From Arenimonas fontis (GTDB lineage Bacteria; Pseudomonadota; Gammaproteobacteria; Xanthomonadales; Xanthomonadaceae), in assembly GCF_008386465.1 (NCBI RefSeq), contig NZ_VUOD01000014.1:1-41087 (forward strand): 41,087 nucleotides of DNA. Direction: 5' to 3'. The notes beneath the pieces are model-generated. The model did not search any database and was not told where the DNA came from. It worked only from the letters and a program-made list of their open reading frames with translations. Shown in pieces: positions 13,826 to 18,647 of this stretch (the stretch's first letter is position 1; each line of letters starts with the position of its first letter). Both the position numbers and the translations under genes were made by a program.

Positions 13826-15299
<1,474 letters not shown>

Positions 15300-15808: not shown

Positions 15809-15811
15809 TCA
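15761..15811. repeat. 17-bp direct repeat spanning the infC stop codon
   Basis: GGCCCGGCCGCGGCTCA occurs at 15761-15777 and again at 15795-15811. The second copy contains the infC stop codon (TCA on the plus strand, TGA in the gene). The two copies are offset by 34 bp. Confidence 0.75.
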
Positions 15812-16336
15812 CTTCTTCTTCGGGGCGATCATCATGATCATCTGCCGGCCCTCCAGGCGGGGGCGTTGCTCGATGATCACCTCGTCGCCCAGGTCGGCCT
15901 CGATGCGCCGGGCCATCTCCAGGCCGAGCTCCTGATGGGCCATCTCGCGACCGCGGAAGCGGATATTGACCTTGACCTTGTCGCCCTCCTCGAGGAAGCG
16001 GCGGAGGTTGCGCATCTTGATGTTGTAGTCGCCGTCGTCGGTGGTCGGGCGGAACTTCAGTTCCTTGATCTCGACCACCTTCTGCTTCTTCCTGGCCGCG
16101 CTGGCCTTCTTCTGCTGCTCGAACATGAACTTGCCGAAGTCCATGATGCGGCAGACCGGCGGGTCGGCGTTCGGCTGTATCTCGACCAGGTCCAGCCCGG
16201 CGTCCTCGGCCAGGGCCAGGGCCTCGTCGCGCGACAGGATGCCGACCATCTCGCCGTCGGAACCGATCACCCGCACGCGGGGGACGCGGATTTCCTGGTT
16301 CCTGCGGTTACGCTTTTCAGTGGCTGTGGTGTTGAT
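15809..16336 (-). CDS. infC: Translation initiation factor IF-3
   Basis: IF-3 binds the 30S subunit, prevents premature 50S joining and checks start-codon and initiator-tRNA pairing. The frame continues upstream of the first ATG (16276) with conserved IF-3 residues ([17 protein letters not shown]), so the true start is further out. ATC at 16336 is the best candidate. It gives 175 residues, beginning [15 protein letters not shown] after fMet, with AGGA nine bases upstream. Non-AUG starts are a known IF-3 autoregulatory device. The C-terminal domain ([12 protein letters not shown], then [18 protein letters not shown]) is complete. It lies 38 bp after thrS. Confidence 0.93.
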
Positions 16337-16374: not shown

Positions 16375-18282
16375 TCAGGCGGCCGGGCCGTTCTCCGCCT
16401 GCAGGCGGTCGATGAAGTCCTGTACCGGCATGGAACCCAGGTCCTCGCCCGACCGGGTGCGCACCGAGATGTGGCCGTTGTCCCGTTCGCGGTCGCCGGC
16501 CACGAGCAGGTACGGCACCTTCTGCAGCGTGTGCTCGCGGATTTTATAGCCGATCTTCTCGTTCCGCAAATCTGCTGCAACCCGGAAGCCTTGATTCGCA
16601 AGGGTTTTCCGTACCGACTCGACGTACTCGGCCTGGGCGTCGGTGATGTTCAGCACCACCGCCTGCACCGGTGCCAGCCAGACCGGGAAGGCGCCGGCGT
16701 AGTTCTCGATCAGGATGCCGATGAAGCGCTCCAGCGAGCCTACGATGGCGCGGTGCAGCATCACCGGATGCCGGCGCTGGCTGTGCTCGTCCACGTACTC
16801 GGCGCCCAGCCGGGCCGGCATCATGAAGTCCACCTGCATGGTGCCCAGCTGCCAGGTGCGGCCGATGGCGTCCTTGAGGTGGTACTCGATCTTGGGGCCG
16901 TAGAAGGCACCCTCGCCGGGCAGTTCCTCCCACTGTACGCCGGCGGCCCGCAGGGCCGAGCGCAGGGCTTCCTCGGCCCGGTCCCAGGTCGCATCGTCGC
17001 CCAGACGCGAGTCCGGGCGCAGGGCGATCTTGATCATCGGCTCGCCGAAGCCGAAGTCCCGGTAGACCTGCAGGGCCTGGCGGTGGAAGGCCGTGACTTC
17101 GGCCTCGACCTGGTCGGGAGTACAGAAGATGTGGCCGTCATCCTGGGTGAAGCCGCGCACCCGCAGAATGCCGTGCAGGGCGCCGGAAGGCTCGTTGCGG
17201 TGGCAGGCGCCGAACTCGCCGTAGCGGATCGGCAGGTCGCGGTAGCTGTGCAGGCCGGCGTTGTAGACCTGGACGTGGCCCGGGCAGTTCATCGGCTTCA
17301 CCGCATAGGTCCGCTTCTCGGACTCGGTGAAGAACATGTTGTCCTTGTAGTTGTCCCAGTGGCCCGAGGCCTTCCACAACGAGACGTCGAGGATCTGCGG
17401 GCAGCGCACTTCCTGGTAGCCGCTGTCGCGGTAGACCTTGCGCATGTACTGCTCGACCACCTGCCAGACCGCCCAGCCCTTCGGGTGCCAGAACACCAGG
17501 CCCGGGCCCTCCTCCTGCAGGTGGAACAGGTCCAGCTGCCTGGCGATGCGCCGATGGTCGCGCTTTTCGGCTTCCTCGATGCGGGTCAGGTAGGCCTTGA
17601 GGTCCTTGTCGTTGGCCCAGGCGGTGCCGTAGATGCGGCTGAGCATCCGGTTGTTGTGGTCGCCGCGCCAATAGGCGCCGGCCACCTTCGTCAGCTTGAA
17701 AGCGCGCAGCCTGTCGGTGGAGGGCACGTGCGGGCCGCGGCACAGGTCGGTGAACTCGCCCTGGCTGTACAGCGACAGCTCCTCGTCGGCCGGGATGGCC
17801 TGGATGATCTCGGCCTTGTAGTGCTCGCCCAGGCCCTTGAAGAAAGCCACGGCCTCGTCGCGCGACTTGACGCTGCGGCTGACCGGCAGGGCTTCCTTGA
17901 CGATCTTGTGCATCTCGGCCTCGATGGCCGGCAGGTCCTCGGGCGTGAACGGCCGCTCGTAGGCGAAGTCGTAGTAGAACCCGTCCTCGATCACCGGGCC
18001 GATGGTCACCTGCGTGCCCGGGTACAGCCGCTGCACGGCCTGGGCCAGCAGGTGGGCGGTGGAATGGCGCAGCAGGTCCAGGGCCTCGGGGCTCTTGTCG
18101 GTGACGATCTCCAGGCGGGCGTCGCGCTCGATGCGGTGGCTGGCATCCACCAGCTTGCCGTCCACCTTGCCGGCGAGGGCGGCCTTGGCCAGGCCGGGGC
18201 CGATCGAGGCGGCGACCTCGGCGACGGAGACGGGATGTTCGAAGGAGCGTTGGCTGCCGTCGGGAAGGGTGATGTTGATCAT
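16375..18282 (-). CDS. thrS: Threonyl-tRNA synthetase
   Basis: The 635-residue class II synthetase charges tRNA-Thr. It shows a TGS domain (residues 1-62), the editing/SAD domain with the [14 protein letters not shown] metal-site motif, the catalytic core with [20 protein letters not shown] (Cys zinc ligand) and motif 2 in [15 protein letters not shown], and a C-terminal anticodon-binding domain ([17 protein letters not shown]). Length matches the family. No clear Shine-Dalgarno sequence precedes ATG 18282. The 165-bp leader upstream contains a Thr-codon leader peptide and an intrinsic terminator, so transcription attenuation is likely. Confidence 0.98.
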
Positions 18283-18326
18283 GGGTTTGCTGGGGTGGCG
18301 ATGGGTGCGGGCTGGCCGCAGGCAAC

Positions 18327-18348
18327 AAAAAAGGGCGCCAGGCGCCCT
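18327..18348 (-). terminator. thrS leader terminator (attenuator)
   Basis: On the minus strand AGGGCGC and GCGCCCT pair around CTG (18332-18348) and are followed by six T residues, ending about 44 bases before the thrS ATG. Its GCCTGGC segment (18343-18337) is complementary to GCCAGGC at 18367-18361, which could act as a competing antiterminator strand. Confidence 0.75.
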
Positions 18349-18360
18349 CGCGGATGCGAA

Positions 18361-18367
18361 GCCTGGC
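18361..18367 (-). promoter_or_regulatory. Possible antiterminator strand of thrS leader
   Basis: GCCAGGC on the minus strand can pair over 7 bp with GCCTGGC inside the downstream terminator. It starts seven bases after the leader-peptide stop codon, where a ribosome finishing the peptide would cover it. A ribosome stalled at the Thr codons would leave it free. Confidence 0.5.
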
Positions 18368-18373
18368 CGTGTC

Positions 18374-18397
18374 CTAGCTGGGCGTGGTAGTGCTCAT
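18374..18397 (-). CDS. thrS leader peptide, MSTTTPS
   Basis: ATG AGC ACT ACC ACG CCC AGC TAG encodes a seven-residue peptide with three consecutive threonine codons, between a sigma70-like promoter and an intrinsic terminator upstream of thrS. This is the usual logic of ribosome-mediated attenuation, in which shortage of charged tRNA-Thr stalls the ribosome and lets transcription continue. The three Thr codons are all different, which argues against a simple repeat. The ribosome binding site is weak (GTCGAG about 10 bases upstream). Such a short frame could arise by chance, but its position and composition make function likely. Confidence 0.65.
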
Positions 18398-18454
18398 GTC
18401 GCACGCTCGACGCCGGTTTCCCGGGGCCACCTCGTTCAAGCGGTTTCGCGACCA

Positions 18455-18483
18455 AACTTAGGGCCGGGGCCGCCGGAAGTCAA
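18455..18483 (-). promoter_or_regulatory. Sigma70-like promoter of the thrS leader
   Basis: TTGACT (18483-18478) and TAAGTT (18460-18455) on the minus strand are separated by exactly 17 bp. Transcription would start near 18448, about 50 bases upstream of the leader peptide. The AT-richer boxes stand out in a GC-rich background. Confidence 0.6.
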
Positions 18484-18572: not shown

Positions 18573-18647
18573 TGGTGGGCGGTACAGGGTTCGAACCTGT
18601 GACCCCTACCATGTCAAGGTAGTGCTCTACCGCTGAGCTAACCGCCC
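18573..18647 (-). tRNA. tRNA-Val (GAC)
   Basis: The minus strand gives a complete 75-nt tRNA. Acceptor arms GGGCGGT and ACCGCCC pair, with A discriminator and encoded CCA. The D-arm is TTAGCTCAGCGGTAGAG. The anticodon stem CTACC/GGTAG closes loop TTGACAT with anticodon GAC, and the T-arm contains GGTTCGAACC. It lies between uvrB and the thrS promoter. Confidence 0.96.

Follow-up and report, generated by a model that had tools for sequence, protein, structure and literature searches.

The window analysed here, a stretch of 41,087 nucleotides from Arenimonas fontis, carries on its minus strand the gene whose regulation is at issue, thrS for threonine--tRNA ligase (16375..18282; TIGR00418, 715.7 bits), followed by infC (15809..16276, in a frame listed from GTG); a tRNA-Val gene (18573-18647) lies upstream of the thrS leader. 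The leader itself, likewise on the minus strand, begins with a -35 element TTGACT (18483-18478) and a -10 element TAAGTT (18460-18455), separated by a spacer of 17 bases. There follow a Shine-Dalgarno-like GAGGTGG (18433-18427), a hairpin with a GAAA loop and an internal C-C mismatch (18428-18409), and the leader frame ATG AGC ACT ACC ACG CCC AGC TAG (18397-18374), which encodes MSTTTPS and whose seven codons include three consecutive threonine codons, ACT ACC ACG. Bases 7-13 past the leader stop are GCCAGGC (18367-18361), the candidate 5' strand of an antiterminator, and its partner GCCTGGC (18343-18337) overlaps an intrinsic terminator (18349-18327) made up of a stem with a 3-base loop, GGGCGC(CTG)GCGCCC (18347-18333), and six T (18332-18327). 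The terminator ends 44 bases ahead of the thrS ATG (18282). The original prediction had named the promoter, the peptide, the 7-nt strand able to pair with the terminator and the terminator itself, and all four are present in the sequence where they had been placed, with the proviso that the -10 element is poor by consensus (3 of 6 bases).

General-purpose scans add little to this picture. A consensus scan of the window found the terminator (1, with 0.4 expected from shuffles) and missed the promoter, and whole-leader folding, an uninformative measure here, was no more stable than that of shuffles (z 0.65). Rfam 15 at gathering thresholds returned no family at the window leader, nor at 16 relatives; at a lax threshold the window gave nothing but a microRNA match that fell well short of its cut-off. 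In particular, no covariance model for a T-box or any other Rfam leader, including the thrABC Thr_leader RF00506, matched the window, or the 16 relatives at gathering thresholds.

Two neighbouring sites deserve mention in their own right. At the expected start of infC, between 16277 and 16345 on the minus strand, none of ATG, GTG and TTG is present; since an ATC codon stands there after AGGA, the sequence suggests an unusual start codon, as is typical of infC, and the true start probably lies further up than the listed GTG. Between rplT and pheS, in turn, a strong hairpin ACGGGGAAGG/CCTTCCCCGT is followed by TTCGTTTTC (14860-14896, minus strand), and no obvious Phe leader peptide was seen at this site.

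Threonine codons ahead of thrS

Short frames of this kind do arise at random: when the 218-base leader was shuffled 20000 times by mononucleotides, 87 of the shuffles held a short ATG frame with at least three threonine codons, which, taken by itself, speaks for coincidence. None of the 20000, however, combined such a frame with a terminator after it, and conservation was found across families, so that a fortuitous three-threonine frame beside a terminator is hardly credible as an explanation.

For the wider comparison, 249 regions upstream of thrS were assembled, of which 243 remained after removal of duplicates and of those bearing N. The set joins the loci of related stretches (the best 80 of 587 kept; L093 came without a thrS start) to 140 regions that mostly come from genomes sampled evenly across the window's order (145 genomes with thrS, G138 left out). 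Enrichment was measured as the best count of each amino acid in any ATG frame of 5-16 codons within the last 220 bases. All leader-frame searches took ATG starts only, and L168, and perhaps L166, look GTG-started. Dinucleotide shuffles served for amino-acid enrichment and operator similarity, and mononucleotide shuffles for duplex energies, the split-site hairpin, the promoter test and the chance-frame test.

Measured in this way, threonine stands out. The mean best threonine count over the 243 regions was 1.67 as against 0.29 in the shuffles (z 37.6), the next amino acids being serine (z 8.7) and arginine (z 8.5), and at least two threonines were reached in 59.7% of regions as against 5.9% in shuffles. 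In other words, codons of the regulatory amino acid are concentrated in a short frame ahead of the gene, as in an attenuator.

The local family of leaders shares the start motif GNGYGACATG, which is blind to the codons that follow and occurs in 97 of the 243 regions, among them those of Xanthomonas, Stenotrophomonas, Luteimonas, Pseudoxanthomonas, Rhodanobacter, Dyella and Luteibacter. All 97 have a threonine codon in third place and 83 have one in fourth place, where ACC, ACG, ACT and ACA are all used, and a stop follows after 6-12 codons. Codon 3 is ACT in 92 of the 97, from which it follows that a constraint at the nucleotide level acts as well. An intrinsic terminator stands between frame and gene in the window and was detected in 81 of the 97 motif-bearing regions, with 16 lacking one. 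The promoter test took 79 of the 97 regions: the pattern TTGACN-16/18-TANNNT recurs in 40 of these 79 relatives as against 0.06% of mononucleotide shuffles, and the distance from the end of the -10 element to the leader ATG is mostly 54-62 bases. What is more, when 61 relatives were searched genome-wide, GNGTGYGACATGNNNACNNS matched exactly once in 30 of the 37 genomes of family f1; 29 of these 30 single matches lie just upstream of thrS by coordinates, and the remaining one (G016) sits approximately 100 bases from a contig end. The 24 genomes outside f1 yielded 10 matches, 8 of them away from thrS and 2 at it, and a reversed control matched twice in the 61 genomes.

Probable start modes of the leader frame

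The leader ATG of the window has no directly adjacent Shine-Dalgarno sequence; GAGGTGG lies farther up, with the hairpin in between. Five consensus pairs of this hairpin, placed around the internal mismatch, are kept in 87-92 of 93 sequences, counts that stand without a null control, and one pair is GC in 68 and CG in 17 of the 93. Taken one at a time, the sequences have only a small folding advantage over shuffles (mean z -1.26). For comparison, three of the four f11 loci (L113, L114, L161) carry GAGGTGGCAC directly before the leader ATG. The simplest reading is that GAGGTGG and ATG belong to one split ribosome-binding site, GAGGTGG being its upstream half, and that the hairpin between them shortens the distance. 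A small stem that RNAalifold proposed over the start codon was set aside as uninformative, its three inner pairs being invariant.

Frames with at least two threonine codons are found in most families of the order, namely in 49 of 53 loci of f1, 23 of 24 of f12, 4 of 4 of both f11 and f4, 5 of 6 of f3, 3 of 3 of f2, 16 of 22 of f7, 1 of 1 of both f6 and f10, 11 of 24 of f8, 2 of 24 of f9 and 0 of 1 of f5. On inspection, only 6 of the 11 flagged f8 frames (MKTTT or MITTT) are convincing, the f8 genus g41 has no leader, and the two f9 frames overlap tRNA genes and were discarded. No candidate leader was present at L130 (f1), L156 (f12), 20 of the 24 f9 loci or the single f5 locus.

In these other families the threonine frame is kept and the sequence around it is not, and three modes of starting can be told apart: a plain Shine-Dalgarno sequence, one split from the AUG by a hairpin as in the window, and an apparently leaderless start. 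In three of the four f11 loci the codon after the leader ATG is AGC, CGC or CGT and the next one is ACT; all nine loci of f2 and f3 have ATG ACG CGA, then ACC in six, after a different hairpin. Family f7, part of f4 and the f8 genus g18 have frames such as MKTTTIN or MNIWTRTTV, and 19 of 27 such frames start 6-7 bases past a TANNNT box; among the other 8 are several for which the search had picked an in-frame ATG farther down. Transcripts with an ATG 6-7 bases past the -10 box would probably be leaderless, to judge by this spacing. Loci of this type are L116, L118, L120, L121, L126, L174, L181, L182, L189, L190, L194, L196, L203, L205, L206, L219, L223, L248 and L250. A relative within f7, L188, has a long inverted repeat past its -10 box and no threonine frame.

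Farther afield, betaproteobacterial and similar loci (L066, L067, L068, L082, L094, L251) have frames that start MTPRT, MAPRT or MSPRT and contain CCGCGAAC, mostly followed by a GC-rich terminator. A sample of the class, comprising 90 of 136 genomes with thrS ranked by the similarity of their ThrRS to that of L068 and reduced to 87 by the removal of 3 that could not be oriented, gave flagged threonine frames at 18 of 87 loci. On inspection only L251 (MTPRT...) looks real, and the other flags were rejected as tRNA genes, an operator read as a frame, or chance.

Predicted pairing between the post-stop linker and the terminator

A usable terminator was present in 118 of 139 leader-bearing regions. 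Duplex energies between linker and terminator were on average more favourable than in shuffles (mean z -1.12), with p 0.05 reached in 19% of the 118 loci, a test that is weak in GC-rich RNA. Given this weakness at single loci, a permutation test specific to the loop was added, in which the post-stop linker of each locus was scored against its own terminator loop or those of other loci (114 of the 118 loci). Linkers paired with their own loops scored 13.5, as against 8.55 +/- 0.48 for permuted loops, a value reached in 0 of 5000 permutations. A less redundant set of 23 loci gave much the same result (13.8 vs 9.1 +/- 0.96, 0 of 5000). Permuted within families, the signal was clear in f1 (42 loci) and f7 (0 of 5000 each) and in f8 (90 of 5000), weak in f3 (458 of 5000), f4 (414 of 5000) and the named loci (273 of 5000), and not significant in f12 alone (1549 of 5000) or f11 (1253 of 5000). 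For f12, inspection suggests that the post-stop strand has the 5' arm as its partner, with CGCCTT facing AAGGGCG. The compensatory pairs include GCCAGGC/GCCTGGC, CCCAAG/CTTGGG, CCGCGAGG/CCTCGTGG, CACTTAAA/TTTGAGTG and GCAAAGCG/CGCTTTGC. The co-variation thus points to an antiterminator that would exclude the terminator and that has undergone compensatory change.

These data bear on a rival view, namely that the leader frame merely couples translation and that the hairpin is an ordinary, unregulated terminator of the tRNA-Val gene or of the intergenic region. The position of tRNA-Val upstream agrees with it, as does the fact that several thrS genes in other lineages, on inspection, also come after a tRNA. 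That said, a promoter-like sequence is conserved between the tRNA and the leader, and an ordinary terminator would predict neither the threonine codons nor a strand that co-varies with the terminator loop, for which reasons we consider this view very improbable.

How a translating ribosome might decide between the two structures was addressed with a folding model of transcripts cut short of the point at which the terminator could close. For the window, the predicted pairing probability of the antiterminator was 0.96 in the free RNA, 0.05 when a ribosome occupied the stop and 0.99 when it occupied the threonine codons; the f1 means were 0.63, 0.14 and 0.75, respectively. From stop to stall, predicted pairing rises by more than 0.2 in 65 of 114 loci and goes in the wrong direction in 5 of 114. 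In the window and in f1, then, a stop-bound ribosome is predicted to hide the antiterminator and a stalled one to free it. In f7 and f8 the model gave similar pairing at the stop and in the stalled state (0.64 vs 0.60 and 0.82 vs 0.74), which means that simple occlusion at the stop codon fails in these leaderless families. It also follows from the value of 0.96 that a leader left untranslated should read through. The original prediction had held that a ribosome at the stop would cover the antiterminator, and had called for a comparison with related genomes: the model agrees on the former, and in the relatives the threonine codons, the stop, the terminator and the antiterminator pairing are kept, the last with compensatory change.

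Proposed sensing at thrS and its relation to known systems

In E. coli, thrS is a textbook case of translational autorepression by the synthetase. One may therefore ask whether the conserved RNA is a ThrRS-binding site, comparable to the E. coli operator, which controls the terminator or the leader frame, the threonine codons being incidental. The hairpin that splits the ribosome-binding site of the leader recalls the E. coli arrangement, in which, according to an excerpt of PMC3858243, the ribosome-binding site of thrS is interrupted by a ThrRS-bound hairpin; what is more, bases near the leader ATG are conserved beyond coding need. Against this, none of the 167 loci of the order has the CACCACTG or CGCCACTG end of an anticodon-arm-like hairpin immediately ahead of thrS, their last 60 bases being free of C[AG]CCACTG. 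Local alignment of the leaders to 55 operator-like sequences (one noise entry, L291, included) gave a mean z of only 1.74 for two leader types and of -0.15 for f7, which leaves a derivation of the leader hairpin from a relocated operator unsupported, and threonine frames persist in families without the split-site hairpin. Taken together, we judge a ThrRS-binding site to be improbable as the basis of control, and the absence of the operator-like hairpin end from all 167 loci agrees with the suggestion that the mechanism would differ from that of E. coli.

Operator-like hairpins are in evidence elsewhere. Among the 87 class loci, which come from other Gammaproteobacteria with the ThrRS most like that of L068, 37 carry the looser 3'-end pattern [CG][AG]CCACT. 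Immediately ahead of thrS, many of L253-L340 (the class sample) and of L055-L108 show a sharp operator-like hairpin of approximately the form GTGGCC-NNYCGTAN-GGYCACCACTG, in which the position resembling an anticodon reads CGT, GGT or AGT. Two loci of this type, L074 and L085, were scanned with Rfam, and in neither did the hairpin match a family.

The window contains the parts of the leader, and their conservation and co-variation are evident in its relatives; from these we infer that the promoter is active, that the frame is translated, that ribosomes stall, that transcription terminates and that the system responds to threonine. On this basis we are confident, short of certainty, that the leader is a ribosome-mediated transcription attenuator that senses the charging of threonine tRNA, a reading supported by conservation and by folding. 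RNA polymerase would start approximately 50 bases ahead of the leader frame, and a ribosome would load and translate MSTTTPS. With ample Thr-tRNA, the ribosome at the stop codon would cover the first bases of GCCAGGC, the terminator GGGCGC/GCGCCC with its six U would form, and transcription would stop ahead of thrS. With Thr-tRNA scarce, the ribosome would stall on ACT ACC ACG, and GCCAGGC, left free, would pair with GCCUGGC of the terminator, so that RNA polymerase would enter thrS. Most likely, then, low levels of charged threonine tRNA turn thrS up in Arenimonas fontis and in many relatives. Gene order makes the proposed effects on infC, rpmI and rplT plausible, and the expression of these genes may in this way be tied to threonine supply.

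Since the 167 loci of the order show no such operator and the group carries a co-varying candidate threonine attenuator, thrS appears to have switched its sensor from free enzyme to tRNA charging in a large group neighbouring E. coli. The leader sequences can be tested in many genera, Xanthomonas, Stenotrophomonas, Luteimonas, Rhodanobacter and Dyella among them, and they provide a natural series of start modes for one kind of leader peptide. A more far-reaching joint reading, which we regard as speculative and, taken as a whole, rather unlikely, is that Lysobacterales and sister families, and separately or by descent Burkholderiales, replaced ThrRS autorepression at thrS by leader-peptide sensing, that the hairpin splitting the ribosome-binding site perhaps adds a further input (ThrRS, temperature or S1) which governs the frequency of leader translation, and that the leaderless forms use a geometry other than stop-codon occlusion.

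Leader-peptide attenuators of Proteobacteria are known from trp, his, thrABC and pheST, the last being a synthetase operon as well, and Vitreschak 2004 is reportedly the reference for them. The thrS leader resembles these systems in its short frame rich in regulatory codons, its antiterminator and its intrinsic terminator before the gene; it differs in that the gene is thrS, that peptides of the local family are 6-12 codons long and that the ribosome-binding site is split by a hairpin. Lopatovskaya 2010 is said to treat attenuation of aminoacyl-tRNA operons and may hold an earlier prediction; the matches listed in our literature search included no threonine leader peptide at thrS in Pseudomonadota. 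In Bacillus, thrS has a T-box leader, whose RNA binds tRNA directly. There a terminator before thrS answers threonine supply, as the one in the window would; the direct binding of tRNA sets the T-box apart, and no Rfam T-box matches the window leader; an excerpt of PMC3997798 mentions the Bacillus terminator. With the E. coli operator the window system shares the control of thrS and the hairpin-interrupted ribosome-binding site (excerpt of PMC3858243), whereas the operator acts on thrS translation via ThrRS and the window system would act at a terminator. Naville and Gautheret 2010, in an excerpt, name E. coli threonyl-tRNA synthetase as an example of self-regulation, and a word search of the main text of that paper (PMC2965389) did not find 'thrS'; nor did word searches of PMC4833913, PMC2659441 and PMC1262725, or of the Xanthomonas small-RNA papers PMC3039613 and PMC2996969. 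The leader peptides of f7 and f8 are predicted to be leaderless like the attenuator peptide peTrpL of rnTrpL in Sinorhizobium meliloti, as described in an excerpt of PMC10117765; that system concerns Trp and trpE, and the window leader itself is not leaderless. Finally, a threonine-dependent leader peptide, thrL, has been proposed upstream of thrS in Streptomyces lividans TK24, a member of the Actinobacteria. As far as the excerpt of PMC8079986 goes, it has 18 residues with two threonines, is leaderless and is reported without a U-rich terminator, and, unlike at the window leader, no co-varying antiterminator is described. To the extent that these excerpts allow, the thrS leader can thus be placed as a new member of the leader-peptide attenuators, the closest system among the matches listed being the thrL proposed in S. 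lividans.
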